29,674 nt of DNA, from positions 1-29,674 of the IMG/VR virus record IMGVR_UViG_3300050025_000048. One strand, written 5' to 3'. Source of the stretch: a virus. The first letter of the stretch is position 1; each line of letters starts with the position of its first letter. The position numbers were made by a program, and so were the translations under genes. Below the pieces are notes generated by a model. The model saw nothing but the letters and a program-made list of their open reading frames with translations. It had not been told where the DNA came from and ran no database searches. Of the stretch, positions 4,192 to 18,153 are shown in pieces.

Positions 4192-4199
4192 GAAATTAC

Positions 4200-4244
4200 T
4201 TACCGTTTCTTGCTGCGCTTGCCGCCACGTTTCTTTCTCGCCAT
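4200..4244 (-). CDS. Very short, highly basic peptide (14 residues)
   Basis: The frame reads MARKKRGGKRSKKR and is preceded by a long, near-perfect ribosome binding site (GGAGGTGA) eight bases before the ATG. Ten of its 14 residues are Lys or Arg. It stands alone between the portal gene and the strong stem-loop at 4152-4191. The signal is better than that of many larger genes here, so translation is plausible. By analogy with small basic virion peptides it could bind packaged DNA, or act as a leader peptide. Both are inference. Confidence 0.5.
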   Translation of the reverse strand: MARKKRGGKRSKKR

Positions 4245-4305
4245 GGATGTTGTCACCTCCTCTCGCTCTTGTAAGCCAGCTGTGTTCCCCGACCTACAAT
4301 TATTA

Positions 4306-6012
4306 TCAGCCTTTGGCCGGTTTAGCGGTCATTTTCTTGAGCTTTTCGAGCATTTGAAGCATGTTTTGCTCGTTTATCTCGTTCACTATTCCGGCAATGG
4401 CATTCAGTTTGTTGTTTTCTTCCTCGCGTTTATGGAGTTTAGACTTCATATAAGCGCTGTTCTGGAACCTCATCATATCGATAAGGTCCTCTTTATCGAT
4501 AGCCCCGGCCTTAAATGCCTGCTCCGCTTTGTCCATTTGCTGGTCTATGAATATCGGAGAGCTGGAATGGGAGTCAACTTTGACGGCAGATCGGCTTGAA
4601 AGCATCTTGGCGGTGAATTTATACCCCTTTGGCTCGTCCAATTCGTAGTGGGTGGGGTCATATTTACGCATAAAGGCAAGTATCAAAGAGCCCACTTTTT
4701 CGACTGAATCTTCCAAAATAGCGGCCTTTTTCTTCACTCTGGAGCTTCCAACCCTTACCAAAAGGTCTGCGTGTGAGGTCGCGCGAACTCCCTTCTCGCC
4801 TTTTCCCTGCATCAACTCCCTGATTCCCGATACTTCGTCGAACATTGTCTCTATCATTTTGAGCTCGGAAAAGAGGTCGCCGGCCTGCGCCTGGAATAAA
4901 TTGAGGATATTGCCCGAAGGAATATCGGTTGCAATCCTGTCCCCAGGGTTTTCCAGCCATTTTTCTTCCACCACGCCTGACATTCCTATGCCGGCAAGAG
5001 GCGGGTCGGCTATTTTTGCCAGTACCCTGCGTATCTCCTGCACCCTTGTATTCATCCATTCCTGGAGCGGGATAAGGTGCATCAGCTCGGTCTTACCCCA
5101 AAAGTAATTCGCTATCATGTTCGGGGTTATTTTGATCAGGGGGAGCTCGTTCGGGACAAAAGTGTTCTCCATAGCATCGAAGAACGTAACCTTGCCATCG
5201 GCCATGAGGACCATTCGATAGTCTTGCGCGTCATCGTCATAGACCATAAGCTCATGGCAAACGAGCACTTTCTCGTTTATCTTTGGGTTCATGTCATACG
5301 TTGCGGTCACGTTTGACATTTGCCCCTGTACTCCGCCAGTTTGGGGATTGGTAGCGGTAACAATGAGCTTCGCTACCGGCAGCGGAAGGGTATCTCCGCC
5401 GGTCTCTACCTCGCTGAATCCGCCCCCTATTGCGTTCATTATGCGTGTCTTTTCTTCCTCTCCGAACTTCTCTATCCTTCGTTTGAACTCAGACTCTCCC
5501 ATGTAGAACTCATGGCATACGCACTCTTGATTATCGAGCATAGGCACATCTTCACGAAGCACGCCGACAAGTTGAGGCTCGACAAGATAAGCCCCAAAAC
5601 GCGCATTCTCATACGGGACGAGCTTTATGAACATGGTCGAATATACCAGCGCCCAATTCAATGCTTCGTTAAAGAGAATGTCGAGATTGCTGTCATGCCA
5701 ATTCTCTACCACTTTCGGAAGTATTACCTGGGCCTTGCGCTGTTCTGTGATGGGGTCCTGGCTATCTGAATCAACGGATGTTTCTATGACAAAAGCTGTG
5801 GTTTCGCCTGAAAAAAGGAATGAGGAGAGAAGGTCGATGTGGGCATAAAGTTTATTGTAATCAACCGCTTGAGGGAGTGATTGATTGCCATACAGGTAGT
5901 AGTTCTTGAGGACGGAATAGAGGTTCTTGCGATCTTCTCGCGAAGCGAAACATCGCGTGATAAGGTCAACGTAAAATGCTTCTCTTTCGTTAGGCTCTTT
6001 GGGAATTTTCAC
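4306..6012 (-). CDS. Portal protein
   Basis: The protein has 568 residues, within the usual range for portals that form the dodecameric ring at the capsid vertex through which DNA enters and leaves. Features seen are an N-terminal helical region, an internal PNELPLIKITPNM segment, a wing/stem-like stretch around WGKTELMHLIPLQEWMNTRV, then LMQGKGEKGVRATSHADLLV (tunnel-loop-like region) and a long helical charged C-terminus (KLHKREEENNKLNAIAGIV). The start is a GTG with a weak ribosome binding site that overlaps the zinc-ribbon gene by 23 bases, so translation is probably coupled. Synteny with TerL supports the call. Confidence 0.85.
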   Translation of the reverse strand: MKIPKEPNEREAFYVDLITRCFASREDRKNLYSVLKNYYLYGNQSLPQAVDYNKLYAHIDLLSSFLFSGETTAFVIETSVDSDSQDPITEQRKAQVILPKVVENWHDSNLDILFNEALNWALVYSTMFIKLVPYENARFGAYLVEPQLVGVLREDVPMLDNQECVCHEFYMGESEFKRRIEKFGEEEKTRIMNAIGGGFSEVETGGDTLPLPVAKLIVTATNPQTGGVQGQMSNVTATYDMNPKINEKVLVCHELMVYDDDAQDYRMVLMADGKVTFFDAMENTFVPNELPLIKITPNMIANYFWGKTELMHLIPLQEWMNTRVQEIRRVLAKIADPPLAGIGMSGVVEEKWLENPGDRIATDIPSGNILNLFQAQAGDLFSELKMIETMFDEVSGIRELMQGKGEKGVRATSHADLLVRVGSSRVKKKAAILEDSVEKVGSLILAFMRKYDPTHYELDEPKGYKFTAKMLSSRSAVKVDSHSSSPIFIDQQMDKAEQAFKAGAIDKEDLIDMMRFQNSAYMKSKLHKREEENNKLNAIAGIVNEINEQNMLQMLEKLKKMTAKPAKG

Positions 6013-6394
6013 TCTTTATGTCCCGGGTGTCATATATTTTGGTGACCTTTCCTATCTGGCTAAGTACTTTCCGTGTCTCGTCAACCTTCACTCCGCCGAA
6101 CATTGAAGGGTTGCTTGCGAGTACCTTGGCGAACTCTTTTTTATCGCCCCATAAACTTTTTGTGTCGCGTGTATGTTTTGTGTTCTCGTTATTAGAATAA
6201 TCTTTAAGGCCGGTTGACGCGACAAGAGCAGCAATGTTCCTGTCCTTGAATTTTGTCATATCGCCTTTGAGCTGGATTGGTGTTCTGAATTGTCTTTTGA
6301 GATTTGGTTCTGTGGCCCCGCATTTGGGGCATACTGGAAGGGTGTGTTCTACTTCTCCGCAACGGATACAAAGATATTCTTTCATTACCGGCAT
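5990..6394 (-). CDS. Zinc-ribbon protein upstream of portal
   Basis: The chosen start (MPVMKEYLCIRCGEV) has AGGAGG five bases upstream; an earlier in-frame codon lacks such a site. The product has 134 residues. Cys pairs CIRC (residues 9-12) and CPKC (about 22-25) form a compact four-Cys zinc ribbon. The rest is basic and helical (KFKDRNIAALVAS, GDKKEFAKVLASN). Its 3' end overlaps the portal start by 23 bases. It may bind nucleic acid or act in head assembly; the family is not recognised beyond the ribbon. Confidence 0.65.
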   Translation of the reverse strand: MPVMKEYLCIRCGEVEHTLPVCPKCGATEPNLKRQFRTPIQLKGDMTKFKDRNIAALVASTGLKDYSNNENTKHTRDTKSLWGDKKEFAKVLASNPSMFGGVKVDETRKVLSQIGKVTKIYDTRDIKSENSQRA

Positions 6395-6431
6395 ATACGC
6401 CTCCTGTGGTAAAAGTGACACACTAGTAGCG

Positions 6432-6461
6432 CATATACCATAAGATTCGTGGTACAGTCAA
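6432..6461 (-). promoter_or_regulatory. Possible promoter for zinc-ribbon and portal genes
   Basis: On the leftward strand TTGACT (6456-6461) is followed after 17-18 bases by GTATAT or TATATG (6432-6438). The -35 box is one base from consensus, while the -10 box is weaker. It lies about 40 bases before the zinc-ribbon start, immediately after the T-run at 6463-6469, so it could restart transcription of the portal-to-capsid genes. Confidence 0.4.
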
Positions 6462-6462
6462 T

Positions 6463-6488
6463 AAAAAAACGTGTACTATCTTTGTACG
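6463..6488 (-). terminator. Weak possible terminator
   Basis: In leftward direction a small stem (CGTAC/GTAC, with a seven-base loop) is followed two bases later by seven U residues. It lies directly after the stop codon of the 76-residue gene and before the possible promoter at 6432-6461. The stem is short, so it would be leaky at best. Confidence 0.3.
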
Positions 6489-6706
6489 GAGATATACTTC
6501 TTGATGTTATTCAGGCTAGAGGGGCGCAGAAGTTCGCCCCTCACCATGAGGAAGGAACGCCCAAGGTCGAGTGTGATGAGCTTTCCGCAGACGGTAATAT
6601 ACTTCCCGACCTTGACTGCAGGCGGCACGCGAGCATCTTTCCATTTGAGGTATATCTGTCCTGACGTGGGGCAGTTCAGGAGCGTCTGCCCTTTGAGTAT
6701 CGCCAT
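6476..6706 (-). CDS. Small protein, 76 residues, unknown
   Basis: The ATG start (MAILKGQTLLNCPTSGQIYL) has AAGG seven bases upstream. A TTG 48 bases earlier would give 92 residues but has no binding site. The sequence alternates hydrophobic and polar residues (KVGKYITVCGKLITLDLG, SFLMVRGELLRP), suggesting a small beta-barrel similar in style to an OB-fold. It has two Cys, far apart. No family is recognised. It is the last gene before the T-run, so it may end the first leftward transcription unit. Confidence 0.5.
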   Translation of the reverse strand: MAILKGQTLLNCPTSGQIYLKWKDARVPPAVKVGKYITVCGKLITLDLGRSFLMVRGELLRPSSLNNIKKYISVQR

Positions 6707-6746
6707 GACGTAACCTTGTACGATCAGTATGCTTGTTGCGTTCTTG

Positions 6747-6929
6747 TTAAGCAATTTTCAAAGCAATCGCTACGCGCTCGACTGTAAGCTCTCTCATTGC
6801 CGGCGTTTCGCCCCTGCGAAGCCGCAGCGCAATCTGGCGGTTAATCCCGAGCTTGTCGATCTCAACCCACTTCATAACTTTGATCTTCCTGCCGATCTTC
6901 CTGATGAGCCGTTCCATTTCTCTCGTCAT
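6747..6929 (-). CDS. Small helix-turn-helix protein
   Basis: The protein has 60 residues and is very basic. The second half reads like an HTH of the Cro/C1 type: INRQIALRLRRGETPAMREL followed by TVERVAIALKI, with the usual turn and a closing helix. AAAGGAG lies ten bases before the ATG, and the start overlaps the previous stop in an ATGA. It may be a small DNA-binding regulator or a packaging accessory protein. Being inside the late operon argues against a main lysogeny repressor. Confidence 0.55.
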   Translation of the reverse strand: MTREMERLIRKIGRKIKVMKWVEIDKLGINRQIALRLRRGETPAMRELTVERVAIALKIA

Positions 6930-7285
6930 TGTGATATTTCTCCTTTCTTCTTGGTAAAGTCAAACAGATTCGTAGGCGGTTGTCCTTGGGGCTGTTGTGG
7001 TACTAATTGGGCCGTTACAAGGTTAGACGTTACGTTCACCCATTCAAGATAATAGCTGTTCCTCTCGGACAGTACGGCTATCATTCTATCTTCGGGCAAT
7101 TCGCTAAAGTCTCCCACCATCGTCCCGACCGTAACAAGGTTTATTCCTTGAGGGCCAGGAAGCGGCAAGTCTTTCATGCTGACGGCATCTTTAAGCCCCG
7201 TAACCTTTCCATCGGTGTACATAGGGAGCCCGGCGAATATACCGAACTTTGTAAATACCGCGATCTTGTTATTTTCTGGTATCAT
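6926..7285 (-). CDS. Unknown protein with Pro/Gln-rich tail
   Basis: The protein has 119 residues. The N-terminal 85 are compact and beta-rich (NKIAVFTKFGIFAGLPMYTD, INLVTVGTMVGDF), followed by a flexible Pro/Gln segment (QLVPQQPQGQPPTN) and a Lys-rich end. AAGGAGG lies five bases before the ATG. The start and stop overlap neighbouring genes by four bases (ATGA), so it is translated as part of a coupled set with 7282-7641 and 6747-6929. The family is not recognised. Confidence 0.55.
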   Translation of the reverse strand: MIPENNKIAVFTKFGIFAGLPMYTDGKVTGLKDAVSMKDLPLPGPQGINLVTVGTMVGDFSELPEDRMIAVLSERNSYYLEWVNVTSNLVTAQLVPQQPQGQPPTNLFDFTKKKGEISQ

Positions 7286-7641
7286 TTTTCCTCCTTTTTA
7301 ATTTTTACAATTTTGTCGGCGGTGTTTTCTTCTTCGTACACTACTCCTAGATGTTCCATGAGAAGGTTGACTACCCTGCTTATCTCTACGCGCTTGCTAG
7401 GCGTAATATCAAGATAGTGCCGCGCACTTCTTAACGGATACATCTTTTCCGTATTGGCGGCAGTGTTTGCGATTGCTATTTCAAGGATTCTAACTTCATC
7501 TATCCGTCTTTCCTCCTCATGTCTTATTCTAAGATAAAGACCATCCTCGCAGATGTTCACATAGACAAACACGATGATGAACATGACTACAGTTACGACC
7601 CATCCGATGATAGAGCATACTGTTAAGGTTTCTAGTGTCAT
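7282..7641 (-). CDS. Single-span membrane protein with helical cytoplasmic domain
   Basis: The protein has 119 residues. Residues about 8-29 form one clear membrane helix (IIGWVVTVVMFIIVFVYV). The rest is a charged helical domain (RHEEERRIDEVRILEIAIAN) with a Lys/Glu-rich end. AAAGGA precedes the ATG by eight bases and the ATG overlaps the previous stop (ATGA). Such proteins in phage operons may serve in lysis control or at the host membrane; there is no motif to decide. Confidence 0.55.
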   Translation of the reverse strand: MTLETLTVCSIIGWVVTVVMFIIVFVYVNICEDGLYLRIRHEEERRIDEVRILEIAIANTAANTEKMYPLRSARHYLDITPSKRVEISRVVNLLMEHLGVVYEEENTADKIVKIKKEEK

Positions 7642-8174
7642 TTGAATTTCCTTTCCTGGATTTTTTTAAGAAGCTCGGGCCTATGGGTTGGAGTTTTCCT
7701 GGCCAGCTCTTTGACCCATTGCTCGAATGGATAACAATCTCCAAACGTTCCGCGCCGTCTCTTGTACTCAGTTCCGAAAATATCCATGAGATAGCGTTTT
7801 GCAATATAGTCAAGTTTGCAGCAGATGAAGCCTGCCTCGTCCTTTGACATGTTGGACTTTTTGGGGATTGCATATTTTTTTCTCACTCCTTCGTGTTCAA
7901 GTATCTCGCACCATCGTACAAGATTGTAATACCGTATCAGGTAGCGTTTGAAGTGTCCCGGCTTCCTTTTCGGCGGAGCCACTGCGGGCGCATGAGGCGA
8001 AATAGTTTTAAGTACCATTGCCAGCCGTACTTGCGTTTGCTCCGATATGTCTCCGGATAGAGCTCTGGATATGGTTTCTCTCGACAGCGCTGCTTGTGCT
8101 GCAAGCGCAGATATCGACCATAGCCCCACAAAGTGCAATCGTACCAGCGCATCAGTTATTTCCTTTTTTGTCAT
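7638..8174 (-). CDS. HTH protein near terminase; candidate small terminase
   Basis: The protein has 178 residues. Residues 15-60 look like a lambda-repressor-type HTH (LAAQAALSRETISRALSG, then EQTQVRLAMVLKTI). A Pro linker (SPHAPAVAPPKRKPG) leads to a basic helical C-terminal domain with three Cys and several aromatic residues. It is encoded two genes downstream of TerL, and small terminases are HTH proteins encoded near TerL, so that role is plausible. A late regulator is the main alternative. The 5' end overlaps the small membrane gene by 23 bases. Confidence 0.5.
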   Translation of the reverse strand: MTKKEITDALVRLHFVGLWSISALAAQAALSRETISRALSGDISEQTQVRLAMVLKTISPHAPAVAPPKRKPGHFKRYLIRYYNLVRWCEILEHEGVRKKYAIPKKSNMSKDEAGFICCKLDYIAKRYLMDIFGTEYKRRRGTFGDCYPFEQWVKELARKTPTHRPELLKKIQERKFK

Positions 8175-8313
8175 ATTCCCTCAATGCCTGGACTACCCGC
8201 TTCATCCGCATTGTCTGTTCCGATTCCCTTTTCCGGTGATTGAACTTTTCAATAACCCACACAGCGAAGCACGCGGAAGCTATGATAAGTATTATTACCC
8301 ATGTATCAGCCAT
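8152..8313 (-). CDS. 53-residue single-span membrane protein
   Basis: It begins MADTWVIILIIASACFAVWV, one membrane helix at the extreme N-terminus, followed by a basic, helical tail (EKFNHRKRESEQTMRMKRVV). GGGGGTGA lies seven bases before the ATG. It sits two bases after the TerL stop and overlaps the HTH gene, so it is co-translated with both. This topology resembles small spanin-like or membrane-tether proteins; the function is unknown. Confidence 0.55.
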   Translation of the reverse strand: MADTWVIILIIASACFAVWVIEKFNHRKRESEQTMRMKRVVQALREYDKKGNN

Positions 8314-8315
8314 TT

Positions 8316-10076
8316 TTATTTCACCCCCTGTTGTTTGAGAAAATTTAATACCAGCGATTGTATCCCGTTAGGATTGTTCTTTTCCTGTTTTGATACCGTC
8401 TCATACGTCTGTCCTGATCTCATAAGTGCAGGCCATTTCCACCTGATATGGGCCAGCACCGCGAGCGCAACGCCTATAACCCTGTCGTCATTGGCCCCTC
8501 CTCTCCCTTCAAGCACGTTGCCGTCCCTTGCGAAGTACTTTGCTTCGCTGATCATATCTGCGGAGTTTATGATAAGCTCTCCGCGCTCCCACATGTCCTT
8601 CATTCTGTTAAGCATGTTCTCTTTTTGTTCGCCCGACGTTTTCGAGTGGTAGGCGAATGACGTGCCGATCGAGTCCTCGCGCGAGTAGAGGAACCATGAC
8701 ATGCAGGATAGCGCGTCCCATATTTTGCCTCCATCTGTTTTACTAATGTGCCTAAATGATTTTTTAATGTTGTTGAGTTCATTGAGCACAGAATAGCCAG
8801 GTCCCGTAAGCTCAACGTTAAGCATCGAGCCGCGATAAGCTCCGGCAAGGTGAAGAAGGACCCAAGCGAATTGATCTGTTCGAATGCCTGGAGCACAAAA
8901 TTCTGCGACCTGCACAAGTCTGTTAGAATAGCACCTAAAGACTTCCGCAACTGATTTATCCGACTTATCATTAAGTCCATATGCAGGGTCTCCTCCGACG
9001 ACATAGACACCTCCTTTTACCGGCTCTTCCCATATCTTCAACTCGGCATTTACCTTCGTTGTAGGATGAATCATGGTATCTTCGAAGTTCGACCCGAAGG
9101 TATATCTGGCGCTCCTGTACGTTTGCTTCAAGGCATGTTTAAACGCTTTCGTGAGGAGCGTCGAGTTAAAGAACTTGTACCCGCTTACGACGAACGCCAT
9201 GTCCGCCGTCGGCGGATGTTCCTGATACATATTGTTAAGATCGCCGTGTTTCTCTTCGTGCAGCATCCACCGCCACCATGCCATTTGTTCTCCGGTGATC
9301 TCATGGCCATGGACTGCCTTTACTTCCTTGACCCACTCTTTTTCCTCGCCGGACAGCTTGCCGTCCCAATACACGCGATAGATTTGAGTGTCCTTCGCAA
9401 ATTGGTAAATTTCTTTAAGCCACCATCCGATGAATATAGCCTTTTGAGTGTGAGCTTTTTTAGCATCTTCCCACATATCGTAAAAGACTCCAAATCCACG
9501 AGCTGTGGACTCGAAGATGTAAAGGCGATGCTCATAGATTTGCGCAAGCGAATCGACAAGGGATAGCAGTTCATCTTCATCTGCGTAGGAAGCGCATTCG
9601 GTTGAATGCAGATAATTAAGTCCTTTAGCCCTTCCAAGCTCTCCTCCTTCCCGTTTTTTCCTTGTGCCGGCAGTAAGGTACGTCAAGAGGGATTTGTTCT
9701 TGAATACCAGCATTTCCCTGTTATGCGACAGCACCGGGACCTTCATGTTCCTGGGCAGGGAATCAAGGTAGCCGTTCAGTATAGACCTGAAATACGTCTT
9801 GTTGGAGTCCGTATCGGTTATGAATGCGCCTTGTATGCCCGGATACTGAAACAGCCAGTATGGCACTATGGCCACACCAGCTGTTGTAATCCCTCCCTGC
9901 CTGCCTTTGAGCACTACGAAATGATGTATCCCGTTCTCCAGCCCGCTCTCTATCTCCCTGGCGAAATGGCGCTGCGTGCCCCAAAACCTTAGAGGCACGC
10001 TGCCGTATTCCTTGCTCTGGATAACGAGCTTCGAGCAGAACTTTTCGTAGTTGGCGAATGGCCTTATGACTGCCAT
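8316..10076 (-). CDS. terL: Terminase large subunit (ATPase/nuclease)
   Basis: The protein has 586 residues. The start is placed at MAVIRPFANYEK because AAGGA lies nine bases upstream and the ATG shares one base with the preceding stop. It is the DNA-packaging motor: an N-terminal ATPase with Walker A KGRQGGITT (57-65), a Walker-B-like strand ending HSTE (157-160) and coupling motif FESTARG (188-194), then an RNase H-like nuclease domain starting at VVGGDPAYG (first Asp) and closing at GGANDDRVIGVALA (acidic third position). A 36-base segment of this gene is repeated exactly in a small early gene at 12621-12656. Confidence 0.93.
   Translation of the reverse strand: MAVIRPFANYEKFCSKLVIQSKEYGSVPLRFWGTQRHFAREIESGLENGIHHFVVLKGRQGGITTAGVAIVPYWLFQYPGIQGAFITDTDSNKTYFRSILNGYLDSLPRNMKVPVLSHNREMLVFKNKSLLTYLTAGTRKKREGGELGRAKGLNYLHSTECASYADEDELLSLVDSLAQIYEHRLYIFESTARGFGVFYDMWEDAKKAHTQKAIFIGWWLKEIYQFAKDTQIYRVYWDGKLSGEEKEWVKEVKAVHGHEITGEQMAWWRWMLHEEKHGDLNNMYQEHPPTADMAFVVSGYKFFNSTLLTKAFKHALKQTYRSARYTFGSNFEDTMIHPTTKVNAELKIWEEPVKGGVYVVGGDPAYGLNDKSDKSVAEVFRCYSNRLVQVAEFCAPGIRTDQFAWVLLHLAGAYRGSMLNVELTGPGYSVLNELNNIKKSFRHISKTDGGKIWDALSCMSWFLYSREDSIGTSFAYHSKTSGEQKENMLNRMKDMWERGELIINSADMISEAKYFARDGNVLEGRGGANDDRVIGVALAVLAHIRWKWPALMRSGQTYETVSKQEKNNPNGIQSLVLNFLKQQGVK
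8913..8948 (-). repeat. 36-base exact repeat, copy inside terL
   Basis: Read on the leftward strand this segment is identical, base for base, to 12621-12656 on the rightward strand. The bases just outside differ on both sides. In terL it encodes AEVFRCYSNRLV, in the nuclease domain just after the first catalytic Asp region. The two copies form an inverted repeat 3.7 kb apart. Confidence 0.95.
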
Positions 10077-10234
10077 TACTTGATGTCCTTCTGCGAACAT
10101 GCCTCTATGATCTTCCCTTCGACGGTCGCGGCCTGTTCGTCCAGCTTGGCAAGCTCGAGCTCCGCCATCATCTTCGCAAACATCCTCGCACACTCCAGAC
10201 CTACCCGACCATCACTATGAAAATTACTCGACAT
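10076..10234 (-). CDS. 52-residue helical protein upstream of terL
   Basis: It begins MSSNFHSDGRVGLECARMFA and continues as a charged helix (KMMAELELAKLDEQAATVEG). GAGG lies six bases before the ATG. It overlaps the upstream gene by 11 bases and the terL start by one base (TAATG), so it feeds translation of terL. The position directly before terL is where small terminases often sit, but 52 residues without an HTH is too short to claim that. Confidence 0.55.
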   Translation of the reverse strand: MSSNFHSDGRVGLECARMFAKMMAELELAKLDEQAATVEGKIIEACSQKDIK

Positions 10235-10427
10235 CTATTACCTCGTTCTTATCACAAAACCTGCTCCAATCCACATACCTCAAACACTTGCGATACTCCA
10301 ATAACTGCTCGACTATAAGCTCCAATAACTCCTCACGGCCCATGTCCCGTATTAACCTGCCCTTGTACGTCGCAGTATCGCTTAACTGCTCGACTATAAG
10401 CTCTAAATCGCTTAACCGATTCTCCAT
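10224..10427 (-). CDS. First gene of the leftward operon; internally duplicated
   Basis: The protein has 67 acidic, helical residues. The octapeptide LELIVEQL occurs twice (residues 8-15 and 35-42) because a 21-base segment is repeated in frame. The ATG at 10427 has no ribosome binding site and lies only a few bases after the transcription start expected from the promoter at 10438-10466, so the message may be leaderless. An upstream GTG would place coding sequence over the promoter. No family is recognised. Confidence 0.5.
   Translation of the reverse strand: MENRLSDLELIVEQLSDTATYKGRLIRDMGREELLELIVEQLLEYRKCLRYVDWSRFCDKNEVIDVE
10302..10403 (-). repeat. Two identical 21-base segments, 81 bases apart
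   Basis: Bases 10302-10322 and 10383-10403 are identical. The 81-base period is a multiple of three, so the gene carries a duplicated LELIVEQL motif. The rest of the unit has diverged, which fits an old internal duplication under selection for this motif. Confidence 0.85.
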
Positions 10428-10436
10428 ATTGATGGC

Positions 10437-10480
10437 AATCGTACCAAAGAATGTACGCTCTGTCAAGCAAAATCGTACCA
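10437..10480 (-). repeat. Direct repeat flanking the leftward promoter (possible operator)
   Basis: The 10-base sequence AATCGTACCA (rightward strand) is present at 10437-10446 and 10471-10480, 34 bases apart (about three helical turns). One copy covers the -10 box and the other lies just upstream of the -35 box. This spacing suits two same-face protein binding sites that would control the promoter. Confidence 0.5.
10438..10466 (-). promoter_or_regulatory. Sigma-70-type promoter of the leftward operon
   Basis: On the leftward strand a perfect TTGACA (10461-10466) is followed by exactly 17 bases and TACGAT (10438-10443, four of six consensus positions). The expected start is near 10431, just before the first gene of the packaging and head operon. 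The strong -35 with an imperfect -10 suggests it is used by host polymerase and may be regulated. A 10-base direct repeat overlaps and flanks it. Confidence 0.65.
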
Positions 10481-10696
10481 CTCTTTTTTTTGGGGTGGGA
10501 AATCAAGCGGGGCGATGACTCCACCAACCCCACGTCCCGATGCCTTTCCGGGTAACACCATCGGTTCACACTCATAACGACAACCACCTCGGCTTGGCTC
10601 ACTACGCCTGCCTCGGCTAGAACCACCGTCCGTACCTTGTTGACCAATGAGAAAACGGTCAGAGGCCACATAGCCACTACCGCCACGGCTAGTCAT
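10463..10696 (-). CDS. Doubtful Gly/Arg-rich reading frame
   Basis: The frame gives 77 residues from ATG (or 96 from a TTG at 10753), Gly/Ser/Arg-rich with repeats such as SSRGRRSEPSRGG, and ends QKKEWYDFA. Neither start has a ribosome binding site, and its stop lies in the -35 box of the leftward promoter. The repeated CCTCGGCT octamer (10587, 10611, 10769) explains part of the composition. It may be a chance frame in a control region; kept only because the end of the product looks protein-like. Confidence 0.2.
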   Translation of the reverse strand: MTSRGGSGYVASDRFLIGQQGTDGGSSRGRRSEPSRGGCRYECEPMVLPGKASGRGVGGVIAPLDFPPQKKEWYDFA

Positions 10697-10876
10697 AGTC
10701 AATACAAGGTTAAAGACAATACCTGATATGCCCCCGCCGACAGGGAAGAACAACGGCTCATTTGCCAGCCTCGGCTCATATGGCTTCCGTCGCCCGCCCG
10801 TTTGGTTGGTGAGTCTCGGGCGGGCTGGTTAGTTCGCCTACTCGTAGTTAAAATTCAATGTCAAAGGAGAATCACA
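10482..10876. other. Divergent control region between leftward and rightward operons
   Basis: This stretch of about 395 bases has no convincing gene. It holds three copies of the octamer CCTCGGCT (10587-10594, 10611-10618, 10769-10776) and a perfect 9-base-pair stem-loop GCCCGCCCG/CGGGCGGGC (10792-10800 with 10817-10825, 16-base loop). A possible -10 (TAAAAT, about 10850-10855) precedes the first rightward gene, but I see no good -35, so an activator or phage polymerase may be needed. GC content is higher than in the early genes to its right. Confidence 0.5.
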
Positions 10877-11293
10877 ATGTTAGACATCACAAAGTTTCCC
10901 GCAGTACCAAAGTACATGCCGTTAGTTTCAAAGAATAAAGCCTTCACGGCCATCAAAGCATTCGTAAAGGCACGCCAGACCATGATCTCCACCTACGGCG
11001 AAGTTCTTGGCGAAAAGTATGCACAGAGGGTTTTCAACGACAAGTTTGGACCCGACATTACGTTCGACGAAATTTGCGAATTATTTGCCGTCCATAAGCG
11101 TTATGACCTTATCCACGGCAGATTGATTCAGTTCGACGCCGAGAACCAGAAAAAGCGCTCTGCGCTGCAGAACGCCGAAACTGAAATCTTGCAACTCATC
11201 GCCACACGAAAGATGATAAATGCAAAAAACAACGACGGACAACTCACCAACGAACAACTCGACAAGCAACTTTCCGAAGGAGAATCATTCTAA
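10877..11293 (+). CDS. First gene of the rightward early operon, unknown
   Basis: The protein has 138 residues with AAAGGAG and a seven-base spacer before the ATG. It starts MLDITKFPAVPKYMPLVSKN, followed by helical stretches, and ends in a charged helix (EILQLIATRKMINAKNNDGQ). There is no membrane segment and only one Cys. First position in the early operon often belongs to host-takeover or regulatory proteins, but no motif supports a specific role. A 9-base-pair hairpin follows the stop. Confidence 0.6.
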   Translation: MLDITKFPAVPKYMPLVSKNKAFTAIKAFVKARQTMISTYGEVLGEKYAQRVFNDKFGPDITFDEICELFAVHKRYDLIHGRLIQFDAENQKKRSALQNAETEILQLIATRKMINAKNNDGQLTNEQLDKQLSEGESF

Positions 11294-11306
11294 CGCAAAC
11301 CTCTCA

Positions 11307-11330
11307 TGGCAGGCGGTAAAACGCCTGCCA
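11307..11330 (+). terminator. Perfect 9-bp hairpin after the first early gene
   Basis: TGGCAGGCG (11307-11315) pairs with CGCCTGCCA (11322-11330) around a six-base loop (GTAAAA). It is GC-rich and sits 13 bases after the stop codon. No U-run follows, so it may slow or attenuate transcription, protect the 3' end of the first message, or need antitermination rather than act as a full terminator. Confidence 0.5.
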
Positions 11331-11390
11331 CTTGAAATGAACCAAAGGAGAAAAAAATAAACGACTACTAATTGAACCCTGTAGGTAGTC

Positions 11391-11503
11391 AAATTCTCTC
11401 TTTTCTCGACAGCCAACGGCAAGCCACGCCAGCAAACCTTGAGAACAAAAACTTGTCATGCCTTGCTAAACCGTTAACCGTCGAAAGCGAAAAGCGAGAA
11501 TTT
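11391..11503 (+). ncRNA. Long regular hairpin, candidate structured RNA
   Basis: The two halves of this 113-base stretch pair as a series: AAATTCTC (11391-11398) with GAGAATTT (11496-11503), TTTTC (11401-11405) with GAAAA (11489-11493), TCGAC (11406-11410) with GTCGA (11480-11484), AACGG (11415-11419) with CCGTT (11471-11475), and CAAG (11420-11423) with CTTG (11462-11465). Small symmetric internal loops (tc/gc, agcc/aacc) separate the stems. The apical loop is about 38 bases. There is no open reading frame with a binding site inside. The regularity is far beyond chance and suggests a functional RNA or long leader of the 11584 gene. Confidence 0.65.
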
Positions 11504-11506
11504 TGA

Positions 11507-11561
11507 CGCTCTCTCTCTCGGGGGCTTATCAGCTGCGAAAGCCCCCTCGGAGAGAGGGAGC
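11507..11561 (+). promoter_or_regulatory. Second stem-loop before the 11584 gene
   Basis: GGGGGCTT (11520-11527) pairs perfectly with AAGCCCCC (11539-11546) around an 11-base loop. The outer CTCTCTCTC and GAGAGAGGGAG arms (11510-11519, 11549-11560) extend the stem with minor bulges. It starts right after the long hairpin at 11391-11503 and ends about 10 bases before the AAAGGAG of the next gene, so it can affect initiation or RNA processing. Confidence 0.6.
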
Positions 11562-11583
11562 TACTCTAAAAAAGGAGAAAAAA

Positions 11584-12195
11584 ATGCTATTACACCACAG
11601 GCAATTAATAATCGAAAAAGCAATACAAGACTATGAAAGCGTATTAGGAAAAGCGTCAGAGGAAGCAAAAGAGATCATTGAACTCTGTATCGACCAATTT
11701 TTAGACACGGAAAAAGACCCGCTAAACATGCCTGTAGAGATATACGACGACGACAAAAGAGGGGAGCAAGACATAGCCAATATGTATGGTTTTGAATCTT
11801 TAGACTCTGAATCAATCCCTTGTAACCAGACGTTTTGTAATGCCATAGCAGGCAAATTCTCATGTAAACTGTATAACGCACACGAACCAGAACACAGCCG
11901 CTGCCCGCGGTACAAACAAAATTTTACCCCCCCGACCATCACCGTAAAAAACAACACGCACGTAATAACTCTCCACTCCACAGCAAAACAACGAACCCAC
12001 CTCGCCATCACGCTGGACAGAATCAGAACGTCTGCGAACGCAGAGATAAACACCACTCGCAGAATGGAAAAAAGATATTCAACAACAAAGCATAAAAGCC
12101 AACCATCACAGCAAATCACTTACACAGCCGGATATTATGAAAACCCCAATCCAAAAAAAGGGCATTATATCCCTTGCGAAATCCACCCATATTAA
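11584..12195 (+). CDS. Early protein with a Cys cluster, unknown
   Basis: The protein has 203 residues. The start ATG at 11584 has AAAGGAG eight bases upstream; an upstream in-frame codon lies inside the stem-loop and was not used. The N-terminal half is a charged helical domain (IIEKAIQDYESVLGKASEEA). A Cys group follows (CNQTFC, FSCKL, RCPRYK), which could bind zinc. The last 80 residues are Thr/Asn/Lys/His-rich and look disordered. A run of seven C residues near 11927 is a place to check for sequence error. Function unknown. Confidence 0.55.
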   Translation: MLLHHRQLIIEKAIQDYESVLGKASEEAKEIIELCIDQFLDTEKDPLNMPVEIYDDDKRGEQDIANMYGFESLDSESIPCNQTFCNAIAGKFSCKLYNAHEPEHSRCPRYKQNFTPPTITVKNNTHVITLHSTAKQRTHLAITLDRIRTSANAEINTTRRMEKRYSTTKHKSQPSQQITYTAGYYENPNPKKGHYIPCEIHPY

Positions 12196-12405
12196 ACCAC
12201 CATATAAAACGGCTCAAAACACCGAGCCGTCAAAACTTTAACACTCAAAAAAAAAATTTCGCTCGCTTCGCTCGCCAAAGCGGTTGGTGAACCGTTGAAT
12301 CGGTTAATGATAAAAGCCAAAACTTACTCCGCCCGCCGGTTTTCTTGCGATTCGCCGTCGGGCGATAAATGCTGCCGGTACAGAATCAAAGGAAAGGAAT
12401 TGTCT
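12196..12405 (+). promoter_or_regulatory. Gap with hairpins and A-run
   Basis: No gene is seen in these 210 bases. ACGGCTC (12209-12215) pairs with GAGCCGT (12224-12230) just after the previous stop, a terminator-like hairpin without a direct U-run. A run of ten A residues (about 12247-12256) follows. Then CGGTT (12281-12285), AACCG (12290-12294) and CGGTT (12301-12305) permit two mutually exclusive small hairpins, a switch-like arrangement. The motif ATTCGCC recurs around 12350, 12410 and 12545. Confidence 0.4.
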
Positions 12406-12525
12406 ATGATTCGCCAAATCCGTATCGTAAAAAACACAAACATTGAAAAATATCGGTGTCACTTCATAAACGACAGAACCGTTATAATAAAAACAAAGGC
12501 AAGGCAACCCGCGGTGCTGTTATAA
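12406..12525 (+). CDS. 39-residue basic peptide
   Basis: The frame begins MIRQIRIVKNTNIEKYRCHF and is Lys/Arg-rich with an Ile/Val strand pattern. AAAGGA lies seven bases before the ATG. An in-frame extension to 12295 would start with TTG, overlap the alternating hairpins and lacks a binding site. It is small enough that coding status is uncertain. No family is recognised. Confidence 0.4.
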   Translation: MIRQIRIVKNTNIEKYRCHFINDRTVIIKTKARQPAVLL

Positions 12526-12588
12526 TCAATCGCAGTCCTTTTCGATTCGCCGATACAAAATAAAAAAGAAAGAAGAATGAGGACGATC

Positions 12589-12858
12589 ATGGCCAACAAA
12601 CAAAACGAAAAAGCAGTCCAGCGGAAGTCTTTAGGTGCTATTCTAACAGACTTGTGGATGTACATTCGGCTTATGAGCAAAATGATTGCCGGCGCATTAC
12701 CAAAGATCAAGATACCGACAATAAAGCCCAAAGCCAAACTTATCCGCGTAGTCAGCATCACGTCCGGAAAACATCACACATGGTGTGACAGCGACCAGGG
12801 ACTCATTCGGAAACCGATTTCGGCAATTCCGAAACGACTTCTTAAGGAGAAAATATGA
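12589..12858 (+). CDS. Small basic early protein carrying a terL-derived segment
   Basis: The protein has 89 residues. The chosen ATG (MANKQNEKAVQRKSLG) has GAGG six bases upstream; another ATG lies 12 bases earlier. Residues 11-23 (RKSLGAILTDLW) are encoded by a 36-base segment identical to part of terL, but read in another frame, so the two proteins share no sequence. The rest is basic with a Lys/Pro-rich middle (PKIKIPTIKPKAKLIR). Its stop overlaps the next start (ATGA). The gene seems to be a recent mosaic or a carrier of the repeat rather than a conserved enzyme. Confidence 0.5.
   Translation: MANKQNEKAVQRKSLGAILTDLWMYIRLMSKMIAGALPKIKIPTIKPKAKLIRVVSITSGKHHTWCDSDQGLIRKPISAIPKRLLKEKI
12621..12656 (+). 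repeat. 36-base exact repeat, early copy
   Basis: Identical to the leftward strand of 8913-8948 inside terL, with mismatches at both immediate flanks. Since terL is transcribed leftward and this gene rightward, both messages contain the same 36 bases in the same sense. Confidence 0.95.
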
Positions 12859-13085
12859 ACCTCAACCTAAGACTTTTGCCAACAGACAAGTTTCAAATAT
12901 ACAAAGAATCTCTAGAAGTTCATTATTTGACCGGACTTGCCTGTACAACCCATTGTCAAATCAACACTGTAAAAAACCTTTCAAAGCCGGTAAAAATATC
13001 CATTGTCAATACCCTGGACGAAATTGAAACCCACCTAAGAGCACTCAGGGCCAGAATGCTTGGCTATGCATTAAAACGATCATAA
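12855..13085 (+). CDS. Small early protein, 76 residues
   Basis: AAGGAG lies six bases before the ATG, which overlaps the preceding stop (ATGA). The product starts MNLNLRLLPTDKFQIYKESL and ends with a basic helix (HLRALRARMLGYALKRS). Two Cys (LACTTHC) lie in the middle. No family is recognised. The downstream gap holds the structured region at 13094-13165. Confidence 0.5.
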   Translation: MNLNLRLLPTDKFQIYKESLEVHYLTGLACTTHCQINTVKNLSKPVKISIVNTLDEIETHLRALRARMLGYALKRS

Positions 13086-13093
13086 AAACCTTA

Positions 13094-13165
13094 TACCGAC
13101 GAATTGACCGAATTTTGTCACCGCGAGATTAAATATCGGTACGCGGGATAACTCGTGAAGCCCGC
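13094..13165 (+). promoter_or_regulatory. Two adjoining stem-loops before the 13183 gene
   Basis: TACCGA (13094-13099) pairs with TCGGTA (13136-13141), enclosing 36 bases. Immediately after, GCGGG (13143-13147) pairs with CCCGC (13161-13165) around 13 bases. The structures end nine bases before the AAAGGAG of the next gene. They follow the same layout as the other structured early gaps but share no clear sequence with them. Confidence 0.45.
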
Positions 13166-13182
13166 ATCTGAAAGGAGATACC

Positions 13183-13371
13183 ATGAGAGACGCTAAAGAC
13201 CTTCACGCCTACATTAAATGGCTAGAGAAAAAAGAAAAAAAACACAAACTATTCTCACTTCATACTGTTCTTGAAGCTATAATTTTTTGGGAGTTGATCA
13301 TGCTATTTGGGTTCCTAATATTTAAGGGGGAAAAGCTATGGAATATTGTCAAACAACATTTGCTATTTTAA
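13183..13371 (+). CDS. Small membrane protein, 62 residues
   Basis: AAAGGAG lies seven bases before the ATG. The N-terminal half is charged (YIKWLEKKEKKHKLF). Residues about 30-48 form one membrane helix (EAIIFWELIMLFGFLIF). The tail is short and basic. Its last 34 bases overlap the next small gene. Early phage membrane peptides of this size are often involved in exclusion or host inhibition, but no motif supports a choice. Confidence 0.5.
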   Translation: MRDAKDLHAYIKWLEKKEKKHKLFSLHTVLEAIIFWELIMLFGFLIFKGEKLWNIVKQHLLF

Positions 13372-13463
13372 ACCCTAATGCAGATTGTTACACCTGCCCC
13401 AACATCCTTGTTTGTATTTCCAAGCTAGCACCAATCGAAAACGAAAAGAAAATCGCCGCATAA
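13338..13463 (+). CDS. 41-residue Cys-containing peptide
   Basis: The frame begins MEYCQTTFAILNPNADCYTC and has four Cys (residues 4, 17, 20 and 26) in a pattern that could hold zinc. AAGGGGG lies seven bases before the ATG. It overlaps the end of the membrane protein gene by 34 bases in another frame, which lowers confidence slightly, but the binding site is as good as in neighbouring genes. Confidence 0.5.
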   Translation: MEYCQTTFAILNPNADCYTCPNILVCISKLAPIENEKKIAA

Positions 13464-13496
13464 TAAAAATTGCGGTAATAAAAAAGGAGAGGAAAA

Positions 13497-13925
13497 ATGA
13501 TCTTACAATGGAATAGAAAAAATGGTCTCGATTTAAAAACAGCGTTCTTTCTTTGCTGGAAATTATGGGAATGGCTCGCAAAAACAGGTAATCAATTTAA
13601 ACGATACTGGCCTGAATGGAAAGAGAACGGAGGCGACGTTAATCTATGTTTTAATGAATGCCCTTGTTGCGAATATACATTCTCCACCTCCACCCCAAAT
13701 AGAGGATGCCACGAATGTATAATGATTGACCTATGGGGAGAACCTGATGAAAAAGACAAAGAAGAAAACGGAGTCCCATGTTCATTTTCAGATTCTCCGT
13801 TTAATCTTTGGTATGCAACCAAAAGCAAACCCTTAGCAATAAAAGAACGTAAAAAATACGCGAAGATCATTGCTAAAGAAGCAAAGAAAAAATATAAAGC
13901 CTTGTGCTTAAAGGAGAGAAAATGA
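13497..13925 (+). CDS. Cys-rich early protein, 142 residues
   Basis: AAAGGAG precedes the ATG by about eight bases. After an aromatic N-terminal helix (FFLCWKLWEWLAKTG) there is a Cys region: CFNECPCCEY, then RGCHECIM and VPCSF, likely a zinc-binding knuckle. The C-terminal 35 residues are Lys-rich and helical. The stop overlaps the start of the DUF932 gene (ATGA). No enzyme motif is seen. Nucleic-acid binding is a reasonable guess from the charge and Cys pattern. Confidence 0.55.
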   Translation: MILQWNRKNGLDLKTAFFLCWKLWEWLAKTGNQFKRYWPEWKENGGDVNLCFNECPCCEYTFSTSTPNRGCHECIMIDLWGEPDEKDKEENGVPCSFSDSPFNLWYATKSKPLAIKERKKYAKIIAKEAKKKYKALCLKERK

Positions 13926-15022
13926 CAGGAGCAAAAGAGAAATTACAAAGCATTATCGATGCAGGAACATCAAACGTCGAAGATACCCTGATGGATATCG
14001 AGGCAGAATTTAACTCACGCAAAGACATCATGGTAAAGCCGGCAATGATAAACTACGATATTCTGCCGCGCTACAAGGAAGGAGAGAGACAAGAAATAAG
14101 CGGAGGAGATTTGCTTATCAAAGTGAAAGACATTGGCGATTTCGAGCTGACTGACCACTCTGAACAGCAAATGTACGACAGACTTGCAATCCCTCGAGCA
14201 TACGGAGACAAGCTGCTAAAACTTGGCGAATTTGCCTTGCTGGAAAACAACCTCGATACTATGACGCACAGAATGGCGGAAGATGGACTCCTTTTCAGAA
14301 CCGTCAATAAGAAACTTAAAGGCTGGCTTTCGCCGTCATTTAAACGCATGGACGCTTCGCCAATATTTGAAGAGTTTGTACATGGCGCCCTAAGAATGGG
14401 TTTTGTGCCTATGGTCGGTCATAACACCAGCTATCGGTATCAAATAACCATGTTAATGCCTGAACTCTTTGAATTGGTACACGATGAATACATTGTTTTT
14501 ACCCTGACAATCACTACGGGCGATTACGGCGGAGTTGCAAATTCCATGCACCTTGGAATACTGCGTGTTATCTGCACAAACCTGGCAACCGGAATTGAAA
14601 TGCTGCGAAAAGTACATCTTGGCAGACGCTTCGACATGGAAGATAAGGACAGCATGATTCTTTCTCAACAGACCCATGAACTCGATACGAAAACGGTAGC
14701 CAGCGCAATCAAAGACATGATAAACACCACACCAAATTACATTGACGCGGTAAAGAAACAACTTCCGGCACTTGCAGGCAAGCCGATCAGCGTCAAAGAA
14801 GCCCTCGCGACACTTAAACGGCGCGGAATAGGGAAAGACATAGCCGAACAGGTTGCAACGCTGTATCAGGTACAAACGGCAGGAGCGCAGATACTTCCAC
14901 AAGCCCCTGGACTTTGGCGATGGTCAAACGCAATCAGCGCCATTGCACAATCACATAAACCCGATATTCGTATTGACCTTGAACGCGAAGCCATGAACGT
15001 TCTTGGTATCTCACTTAACTAG
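13922..15022 (+). CDS. DUF932-like phage/plasmid protein
   Basis: The protein has 366 residues, starting MTGAKEKLQSIIDAG with AAAGGAG seven bases upstream. The segments LLFRTVNKKLKGWLSPSFKR, then GDYGGVANSMHLGILRVICT with NLATGIEM, match what I know of the DUF932 family (phage/plasmid-like, TIGR03299-like), found in many phages and plasmids near recombination genes. Its biochemical role is not established. The C-terminal part is helical and ends in LEREAMNVLGISLN. It is followed at once by a seven-codon leader frame and a conserved structured element. Confidence 0.75.
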   Translation: MTGAKEKLQSIIDAGTSNVEDTLMDIEAEFNSRKDIMVKPAMINYDILPRYKEGERQEISGGDLLIKVKDIGDFELTDHSEQQMYDRLAIPRAYGDKLLKLGEFALLENNLDTMTHRMAEDGLLFRTVNKKLKGWLSPSFKRMDASPIFEEFVHGALRMGFVPMVGHNTSYRYQITMLMPELFELVHDEYIVFTLTITTGDYGGVANSMHLGILRVICTNLATGIEMLRKVHLGRRFDMEDKDSMILSQQTHELDTKTVASAIKDMINTTPNYIDAVKKQLPALAGKPISVKEALATLKRRGIGKDIAEQVATLYQVQTAGAQILPQAPGLWRWSNAISAIAQSHKPDIRIDLEREAMNVLGISLN

Positions 15023-15030
15023 GAGGACAA

Positions 15031-15054
15031 ATGGACTATCATTCCAGCTGGTAA
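15031..15054 (+). CDS. Seven-residue leader-like frame (MDYHSSW)
   Basis: AGGAGG overlaps the stop codon of the DUF932 gene and lies four bases before this ATG. The frame is MDYHSSW followed by TAA. It ends 12 bases before the conserved element at 15066-15142. The strong binding site with a tiny frame ahead of a structured RNA is the layout of a translated leader peptide that controls downstream expression. It could also be a remnant of a deleted gene. Confidence 0.4.
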   Translation: MDYHSSW

Positions 15055-15065
15055 CACTAACCCGA

Positions 15066-15142
15066 CGGTGTGAGTATCGGTGAGGCAGTTCAGGAATCAG
15101 CCTGATAGAGAGCATGTGCGCCACTGAGTTCACCGAGCCGCC
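15066..15142 (+). ncRNA. Conserved structured element, copy 1
   Basis: This shares a 23-base 5' end (15066-15088) and a 3' end with CTGAG, three bases, ACCGAGCCGCC (15124-15142) with the element at 22919-23049; the interior differs. The ends pair: CGG with CCG, then CGGTGA (15078-15083) with TCACCG (15130-15135), leaving a conserved asymmetric loop TGTGAGTAT opposite AG. Inside, TCAGG and CCTGA form a small hairpin. The element has 77 bases and ends 20 bases before the start of the 15165 gene. Confidence 0.7.
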
Positions 15143-15164
15143 ACAATTCTTAAAGGAGAAAACT

Positions 15165-15380
15165 ATGATTATTTTGAAAGAATGGGGAGTAAAAATCATT
15201 GACGGCGAAAAGAAGATTAGCGGTACGTTTGCCGTAATGAACGGAACGAAGGAAATTGCCGAACAACTTTTCAACACTCAGTACGGTAACAAAAAGATAA
15301 ATTTTCCGGCAAAACTCATGGTCGAAATAGAAGCACTCGACAAGAAAATCCTGGACGAACTCGATAGGTATTTCAGCTAA
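15165..15380 (+). CDS. 71-residue early protein, unknown
   Basis: AAAGGAG lies seven bases before the ATG. The product starts MIILKEWGVKIIDGEKKISG and has a small alpha/beta look with a charged C-terminal helix (EIEALDKKILDELDRYF). There is no Cys or membrane segment. It lies between two structured elements (15066-15142 and 15389-15445), so its expression may be set by the upstream one. Confidence 0.5.
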   Translation: MIILKEWGVKIIDGEKKISGTFAVMNGTKEIAEQLFNTQYGNKKINFPAKLMVEIEALDKKILDELDRYFS

Positions 15381-15388
15381 AAACAATC

Positions 15389-15445
15389 GGGGACTGGAGA
15401 GGTACGATCTAACGGAAAGCTGTTTTGAAACCTGCCGTGGTCCCC
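15389..15445 (+). promoter_or_regulatory. Structured gap before the 15468 gene
   Basis: GGGGAC (15389-15394) pairs with GTCCCC (15440-15445). Within it AGGT (15400-15403) pairs with ACCT (15430-15433). The internal loop is tggag opposite gccgtg. The element follows the preceding stop by eight bases and ends eight bases before AAAGGAG of the next gene. It has the same plan as the shared element (two nested stems with an asymmetric loop) but not its sequence. Confidence 0.5.
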
Positions 15446-15467
15446 ACAACTTAAAGGAGAAAGATAA

Positions 15468-15896
15468 ATGAACATTCATCAAAAACGCTACATGCAGAAA
15501 AGAGTACAGCAAGTTGCAGACAAAACACGACACGACATAAACGAAAAATTCAATTATAATGACAAGTGTTACCAGCCAAGCTACAAAACAAAAATCGATG
15601 AGATTGACAATGGCCGAATGAAGGCTCTTATTATGAGCCTAACAAATTTCAAGATCATGGATTATAACAACTACAACGCAGTTTCAATATACCATCCAAA
15701 ACTTAAGGCTCTAAAAGCAAAGCTTGACAAAGAAGTTGATACAATGGACGCCAACAAAGAAAAAAAGCGCATGGCACTTATGGCCAAAGTTGATAAACTG
15801 CAAGCGTCAATCACCGACAGCGTTATGCTCGGCGGAGTAGGCGAAAAAGAGCTCGAGAAATTCCTCAAAAAATTAGAAGCACTATCGGAGGTCTAA
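15468..15896 (+). CDS. Helical early protein, 142 residues
   Basis: AAAGGAG and an eight-base spacer precede the ATG. The product is almost entirely helical and Lys-rich: RYMQKRVQQVADKTRHDINE at the start and a long coiled-coil-like part (PKLKALKAKLDKEVDTMDAN, EKKRMALMAKVDKLQASITD). No catalytic motif is seen. Together with the next gene it precedes the recombination genes, so an accessory role in recombination or nucleoid binding is possible but unproven. Confidence 0.55.
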   Translation: MNIHQKRYMQKRVQQVADKTRHDINEKFNYNDKCYQPSYKTKIDEIDNGRMKALIMSLTNFKIMDYNNYNAVSIYHPKLKALKAKLDKEVDTMDANKEKKRMALMAKVDKLQASITDSVMLGGVGEKELEKFLKKLEALSEV

Positions 15897-15897
15897 C

Positions 15898-16221: not shown

Positions 16222-16256
16222 GGATGCTGTATATCGACTGTTAAAGGAGAAAATAC

Positions 16257-17315
16257 ATGACGGAAAATACATTACAGAAACATACGAACAACTTGCCGGC
16301 ACAACTGCCAAAGAGTGATGTTGAAACATATATCATGTCAGCCATCGAAAAAGGTGCAAGCGTTGACGTGATAGAGCGCCTGCTTGCCATGCGCGAAACA
16401 CTGCGAAAAGAGGTTGCAAAGCAAGAATATGACAAAGCATTTTCTAAATTCCAAGCTGCGTGTCCAGTTATCAAAAAAGATACGCCGGTCCTCAACAAAG
16501 ACAAAGCAACTGTCAGATATTCTTACGCGCAGATGGATTCTATCATCAATCAAATCAAGGTTCCGCTTGCTGTCAACGGATTCTCTTACTCTCTTACTTC
16601 TAAACTTGATCTCAAAGGAGATAAGCATTGGCTCACAGCTACGGCGAAACTATCACACATTGGCGGACATTCGGAAATTTCTGAATTTGAAATCCCGATC
16701 GACAAAGACGCGTTCATGAACGAACAGCAAAAATTTGCCAGTGCAAGAACATTTGCAATGCGCTATGCGTTCCTTGGAGTAACGGGCATCATGACCGGCG
16801 ACCAGGACGACGACGGCAACCAAACACCTATTAAGGGAAAAGTGGCCGACGACTTACCGCCAGAACAAACGAGCAAGCCAGATGACAAACAAGAACCAAC
16901 TAAAGAAAAATCATCTGCAGAAAACAAAACAGTCCTGACCGGAGCCAACCTGACCAGAGCCGGCAAAGACGAGAACAACAGAGAACTCCAGAACTCACCC
17001 GGCTGTATTTCAGCACCAGGAATTGTTCACTGCGAAGTAAAAGACGTCAGAATTAAAACAGGAACATCAAGCAGGGGCCCATGGACAATGTACAGTATCG
17101 AAATAGATAACGTCAGATATGGGACATTCGATACCAAAGACGGGCAACGATTACTTGATGCTAAAGACAGAGTAGAACCGATAAAGTTTACCTACACAGA
17201 AACAAAACAAGGAATGAAGATCACACCCGGAAGTATTATCAGTTTGTTTGACGAAGAAGCTCATGCCTTGGAAGGAGTAGTAATGGAAGGAGAACCCGAT
17301 GCGGATTACAAATAA
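16257..17315 (+). CDS. erf: ERF-family single-strand annealing protein
   Basis: The protein has 352 residues. The N-terminal 200 match the ERF superfamily: AFSKFQAACPVIKKDTPVLN, then YSYAQMDSIINQIKVPLAVN, then KFASARTFAMRYAFLGVTG and GDQDDDG. ERF proteins coat single-stranded DNA and anneal complementary strands in phage recombination and circularisation. A charged, disordered linker (PEQTSKPDDKQEPTKEKSSA) leads to a C-terminal beta-rich domain (GIVHCEVKDVRIKTGTSSRG...TMYSIEIDN) that may be an OB-fold. It overlaps the nuclease gene by 17 bases, the classic annealase/exonuclease pair. Confidence 0.85.
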   Translation: MTENTLQKHTNNLPAQLPKSDVETYIMSAIEKGASVDVIERLLAMRETLRKEVAKQEYDKAFSKFQAACPVIKKDTPVLNKDKATVRYSYAQMDSIINQIKVPLAVNGFSYSLTSKLDLKGDKHWLTATAKLSHIGGHSEISEFEIPIDKDAFMNEQQKFASARTFAMRYAFLGVTGIMTGDQDDDGNQTPIKGKVADDLPPEQTSKPDDKQEPTKEKSSAENKTVLTGANLTRAGKDENNRELQNSPGCISAPGIVHCEVKDVRIKTGTSSRGPWTMYSIEIDNVRYGTFDTKDGQRLLDAKDRVEPIKFTYTETKQGMKITPGSIISLFDEEAHALEGVVMEGEPDADYK

Positions 17316-18153
17316 ATACGGGCTACCAGAAGCAATCGTAAACGCAGTCCAGCAGCGGAAAGCCAGTGATGGGCGTATATCTGTTACGTCCCTCATTGAC
17401 TCTCCACAAATACGACAGCTTGTACTAGATCATTGGGATGAACTAGAGGACGATGCAAGCGATCGACTTTGGGCATTGATGGGAAATCTCTTCCATGACT
17501 TTTTGAAAACAAATAGCAACAACTCTTTTGTAGAAGAAGAATTAATATCAAATGTTAATGGACAACTCATCTCCTGCAGAACAGACATCATGGAAGATGG
17601 CGGGATAATCTCCGACTGGAAAGTAGTATCCGTTTGGCATTTGAAATTTGGGCTAAAAGCAAACGTGGAAAAACAACTAAATTGCTATGCCTACATCTGG
17701 AGAAAATCATCGTTTGATGTTACAAAACTTCAAGCTCATTTACTTCTACGAGACTGGACGCTAAACGAGAAATTACGTTATAATGATTATCCTCCAATAC
17801 CTTTTCAAACAGTTGAAGTACCATTATGGACCAAAGAAGAACAGTATAACTACATCACCCGACGAATCGCATTTCACACATTACCGCCAGCAGATAAAAC
17901 ATGCACCGACGAAGAACGCTGGAGAAAACCAAACAAATTGGCCATTATGAAAGAAGGACGCAAAACCGCAGTGCGAGTGTTTGATAGTGTAAAAGAAGCA
18001 GAAAAACACATGGACGAAAACAAACTCGACAATAAGCATAGCATTGTGGTCCGTCCTGGCGGCTATACCAGATGCGAAAATTACTGTATTGTATCTAAAT
18101 TCTGTCCGCAGTGGGCAAAAGAAAAACCAAAAGAACCATTGACAGAAGAATAG
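17299..18153 (+). CDS. Cas4/RecB-like PD-(D/E)XK nuclease with Fe-S cysteines
   Basis: The protein has 284 residues. Catalytic signature: His66 (GNLFHDFL), Asp96 (RTDIMEDGG), SDWK with Asp106 and Lys108, then motif QLNCYAYIW (126-134). Four Cys (202, 259, 263, 269; TCTDEERW and RCENYCIVSKFC) fit the iron-sulfur cluster of Cas4/AddB-type nucleases. It probably resects DNA ends to feed the ERF protein encoded just upstream. AAGGAG lies seven bases before the ATG. No helicase domain is present, as expected for the short phage form. Confidence 0.82.
   Translation: MRITNKYGLPEAIVNAVQQRKASDGRISVTSLIDSPQIRQLVLDHWDELEDDASDRLWALMGNLFHDFLKTNSNNSFVEEELISNVNGQLISCRTDIMEDGGIISDWKVVSVWHLKFGLKANVEKQLNCYAYIWRKSSFDVTKLQAHLLLRDWTLNEKLRYNDYPPIPFQTVEVPLWTKEEQYNYITRRIAFHTLPPADKTCTDEERWRKPNKLAIMKEGRKTAVRVFDSVKEAEKHMDENKLDNKHSIVVRPGGYTRCENYCIVSKFCPQWAKEKPKEPLTEE

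Follow-up and report, generated by a model that had tools for sequence, protein, structure and literature searches.

A 36-nucleotide inverted copy of terL in a small early gene of an uncultured phage, probably a single templated insertion

The window analysed here is the complete 29,674-base stretch of the IMG/VR virus record IMGVR_UViG_3300050025_000048. Its late genes are read leftward and include terL, a portal-sized ORF (4306-6012), for which the sole PHROG match is a weak one to a head-tail adaptor, and the gene of the major head protein (495-1508). The rightward early block starts at about 10.8 kb and includes the genes of an Erf-type annealing protein and of an exonuclease that is likely its partner. 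The empty-site comparison below relies on a second viral contig, IMGVR_UViG_3300014839_000053 (20,489 b; G001). The features needed for the argument are:

8316..10193, minus strand: terL, terminase large subunit; 625 aa ORF, conserved part from about residue 45, PHROG 2 E=2e-13
8913..8948, minus strand: 36-mer copy in terL, the donor (ancestral) copy as judged by alignment; codons AEVFRCYSNRLV, nuclease domain
12589..12858, plus strand: small early gene with the insertion; 89 aa from the ATG at 12589, 93 aa from the ATG at 12577
12621..12656, plus strand: derived 36-nt insertion, an inverted copy of 8913-8948; in frame, adds RKSLGAILTDLW
12620..12657, no strand assigned: insertion point; empty site in G001 CCA/GATG, with a 1-nt placement ambiguity
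16257..17315, plus strand: Erf-type single-strand annealing protein; Pfam PF04404 E=9.8e-17, PHROG 155 E=9.9e-30
17299..18153, plus strand: exonuclease; PHROG 2139 E=2.2e-32

The window contains several other repeats. An exact 23-nt direct repeat, CGGTGTGAGTATCGGTGAGGCAG, opens two intergenic elements (15066-15140 and 22917-23050), and each closes with GAG(T/A)T(C/T)ACCGAGCCGCC, followed shortly by a ribosome-binding site and a start codon. The pair resembles a leader RNA or structured element present twice; neither has an Rfam match, their folding z-scores are unremarkable, a scan of viral contigs did not recover the pattern of paired motifs, and outside the window the 23-mer was found in G001 only. 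A perfect intergenic 22-nt tandem duplication (AACTGTAAACTTATAAAAGCAC twice) lies at 21976-22019, and, within ORF 20795-21505 (weak DUF7666 match), a coding tandem repeat at 21179-21433 whose steps alternate between 9 and 12 nt. The imperfect 62-nt direct repeat at neighbouring gene ends (23947-24008 and 24362-24423) suggests that a gene has been duplicated locally in tandem (23631-23987 and 24040-24402). The gene at 22439-22906 encodes a pentapeptide-repeat protein (Pfam PF00805 E=4e-22). The pentapeptide-repeat fold can mimic DNA, and a role of this gene in host interaction or counter-defence is possible.

Bases 8913-8948 and 12621-12656, one in terL and the other in the early gene 3.7 kb away, are reverse complements with 36/36 identity. 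The identity breaks off abruptly at both ends of both copies, the terL copy being flanked by ATCAGTT and CAGGTCG and the early-gene copy by CAGTCCA and GATGTAC. An earlier note on this DNA had described the repeat with its sharp ends, had called it too long for chance and had placed the two copies in different reading frames, and our analysis bears out all of this: the chance expectation for a 36-nt inverted match is ~1.2e-13, and the same bases encode AEVFRCYSNRLV in terL and (Q)RKSLGAILTDLW in the early ORF. Even allowing 3 mismatches, the 29,674-base record holds the 36-mer at these two sites only, and no third copy was found in viral contigs. Among 86 loci (876,639 bases) of this TerL/phage group, the pair is the sole dispersed exact inverted repeat of at least 24 nt. 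Two related phage records contain exact direct repeats of 45-46 nt, about 0.6-0.7 kb apart (L093:31187/31869 and L029:2918/3504), and these are possibly further short dispersed copies. Such copies are rare in this phage group, yet not unheard of.

The terL product shares 32-46% identity with TerL proteins that are annotated as such or inferred. In the region GGDPAYG...SVAEVFRCYSNRLVQVAEF, AEVFRCYSNRLV aligns gap-free with four further TerL proteins, which share 32-46% identity overall; this alignment identifies the terL copy as native and the early-gene copy as derived. The earlier note had suggested comparing relatives to find the ancestral copy, and both this alignment and the lack of the early-gene copy in G001 place it in terL. 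The early gene was rejected as the ancestral source, since the TerL homologues carry the segment natively. The donor has been retained, and therefore the event was copy-and-paste and not movement. The 36-mer is also an imperfect palindrome that folds with -10.5 kcal/mol as RNA, as a small hairpin able to move by itself might; equal folding, however, is reached by 3-4% of the 36-mers of this genome as RNA and by 6-11% as DNA, the terL copy is unremarkable, conserved coding DNA, and there is no third copy. In place of the several dispersed copies that define a mobile palindromic element there are two, one of which is native terL, and we regard such an element as extremely improbable. In Rickettsia, palindromic elements (RPE) of about 100-150 bp are inserted in frame in genes and form multi-copy families. 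The insertion described here resembles them in being short and in frame and in having some self-complementarity, but it is a lone copy, and what it copies is an ordinary stretch of terL.

In the scan of viral contigs, G001 is the only other record carrying the 36-mer, as a single copy in terL that is identical to that of the window. Across window positions 1-16342 (16,342 bases) the two contigs are ~99.9% identical, with 13 substitutions and a single indel between them. This indel consists of exactly the 36 nt at 12621-12656, with both flanks contiguous, and at 16796-16817 G001 has the empty site GCAGTCCA/GATGTACATT, joined as GCAGTCCAGATGTACATTCGGC. Features expected of a copy-paste insertion are present: the inserted sequence is identical to a donor elsewhere, the donor is kept in the window and in G001, and a close relative has an empty site with contiguous flanks as the only indel in 16.3 kb. 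The capture of a terL piece, one of the meanings the earlier note had considered, is strongly supported by this 99.9% identical contig. By the note's own reasoning a related genome with one copy would point to chance capture or misassembly, and G001 is such a genome. No second carrier of the insertion was found in viral contigs, so the allele is known from one record only. No DNA relatives were found among named phages, and no prophage relatives with this TerL were confirmed in genome contigs by a search covering close relatives only. Of the 13 substitutions, three fall no farther than 511 bp from the insertion (p ~0.04 for an interval picked post hoc), and we rejected this clustering as a sign of error-prone repair because it is too weak to use.

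The same comparison bears on the earlier proposal that recombination between the copies inverts the intervening 3.7 kb and thereby flips the control region. Perfect homology over 36 nt, together with the Erf/exonuclease pair of the phage, could support rare recombination. An invertible switch is recognised by conservation of both copies, by the presence of both orientations and by intact genes, and none of these is seen here. The idea of a conserved inverted pair was rejected, as the closest contig, the near-identical G001, lacks the early-gene copy; no conserved pair was found at all. No inverted form of the interval occurs among the viral contig records bearing the 36-mer, and the phage proteins scanned include no invertase. 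Moreover, inversion would break terL, joining residues 1-427 of TerL out of frame to the early gene in a predicted product of 470 aa without the conserved C-terminal DDRVI, which makes a switch implausible. We therefore give a functional inversion switch hardly any credence. The further suggestion of an RNA that mimics the terL message is unsupported, the copy being present in one genome only and not conserved.

The junctions can be read base by base. The acceptor is AAAAGCAGTCCA/GATGTACATT, the insert runs from GCGGAAG to ACTTGTG, and in the donor the same stretch is preceded by AAATCAGTT and followed by CAGGTCGC. The joins of the filled site are GCAGTCCA/GCGGAAG and GACTTGTG/GATGTAC, and the empty form is GCAGTCCA/GATGTAC. 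The insertion can be placed at two adjacent positions only. No target bases were lost, junction analysis found no target-site duplication beyond the 1-nt placement ambiguity, and microhomology at the joins amounts to 0-1 nt. Target-site duplication is the hallmark of transposons and of Cas1-Cas2-type integration; its absence, the lack of base loss and the microhomology of at most 1 nt disfavour ordinary transposition and Cas1-Cas2-type integration. The joins also fall short of the ~2 nt or more of microhomology expected at MMBIR/FoSTeS switch points. Template switching, the route named in the earlier note, is a possible origin of the captured piece, although such joins make its classic, microhomology-driven form less likely.

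How does the insertion affect the acceptor gene? It adds 12 stop-free codons in frame, extending the product from the 77 aa of the empty-site form in G001 to 89 aa (start at 12589), and the overlap of the stop with the next start at 12855 (ATGA) is preserved. If random genome fragments of 20-60 nt were inserted at this point, ~20% would be expected to keep the frame and lack a stop, and it is for this reason that the open frame lends mild support to a tolerated, real allele and does not prove function. Apart from G001, no homologues of the early gene were found in viral contigs, phage records or 80 related TerL loci, and Pfam and PHROG searches gave no family match. The kept frame and ATGA overlap could also mean that selection has retained the insertion, the 12 residues having altered an early protein with, for example, an accessory or host-takeover role. 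Against this stand the single allele in a single genome, the early gene without known homologue or function and the ~20% expectation by chance, and we consider selection very unlikely. The insertion is probably neutral, lengthening an accessory protein of low conservation by 12 residues while leaving the downstream overlap intact.

Could the insertion have been made in the tube, by whole-genome amplification or library PCR, and then have entered the assembly? A displaced strand would have to prime on terL, copy 36 nt and return, and the product would have to be amplified enough. Of the chimeras formed by phi29 polymerase, 85% are inverted and mostly join segments less than 10 kb apart (PMC1855051), and the geometry here is the same; the insertion allele is, in addition, known from a single record. 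However, two switches are needed, with a return to the exact same base, and complementarity of 2 bp or more was present in 93.5% of the inverted phi29 chimeras below 10 kb (PMC1855051), compared to 0-1 nt here. The usual phi29 (MDA) chimera is a simple junction at which intervening sequence has been deleted, and it differs in this from 36 inserted nt with a perfect return. A rare product should normally be outcompeted by the majority path during assembly, and its in-frame, stop-free outcome would be luck (~20%). An assembler alone could hardly make both joins with intact flanks, which suggests that such molecules or reads existed. Taken together, we judge an in-vitro chimera unlikely, while it deserves to be taken seriously.

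The insertion is thus shown to be a derived one that comes from terL, joins cleanly and keeps the frame, and we infer that the event took place in the phage rather than in the tube. Our preferred explanation, which we hold to be probable, is a recent, single, short inverted templated insertion. While phage DNA was being replicated or a break repaired, 36 nt of terL, in cis or on another genome copy, would have been copied and inserted in inverted orientation into the early gene 3.7 kb off, without loss or duplication of the target. The piece could have been captured at a break as a short DNA fragment by end joining, or a polymerase could have switched template twice. Because microhomology is only 0-1 nt, which fits neither classic template switching nor most phi29 chimeras, end-joining capture appears slightly likelier than a classic microhomology-driven switch. 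The phage proteins that were scanned include none with an end-joining function.

Insertions of this class are already known and have been studied mostly in eukaryotes. At double-strand breaks in yeast and human cells, templated insertions form with 0-20 nt of microhomology (Yu et al. 2024, PMC11724301; PMC5087911). As in the phage, they are short copies from elsewhere in the genome that leave the donor unchanged, occur in either orientation and have junctions with none to a few nt of microhomology. They have been described, however, in eukaryotes with end joining and Pol delta/theta, whereas our case comes from an uncultured phage. Short template-switch mutations of the MMBIR/FoSTeS type likewise place an inverted copy of nearby sequence in one event (PMC2621351, PMC7954356), but usually act at short range and/or with microhomology, in contrast to the 3.7 kb and at most 1 nt found here.

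Whether the insertion is real or a chimera, there is no evidence for a regulatory switch at this locus. If it is a chimera, it is a useful reminder that a single long inverted repeat in a metagenome contig should be checked against the reads. If it is real, it is a base-exact short inverted templated insertion, complete with its empty site, in an uncultured phage. It is also conceivable, at a very low probability, that phage or host has an active route that takes fragments of about 30-40 nt from the genome of the phage itself and pastes them, without microhomology, into accessory early genes; such a route would be a source of new peptide segments, and the window would hold a freshly caught example. 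A real insertion, by whichever route, would illustrate one way for small phage genes to gain in-frame segments.
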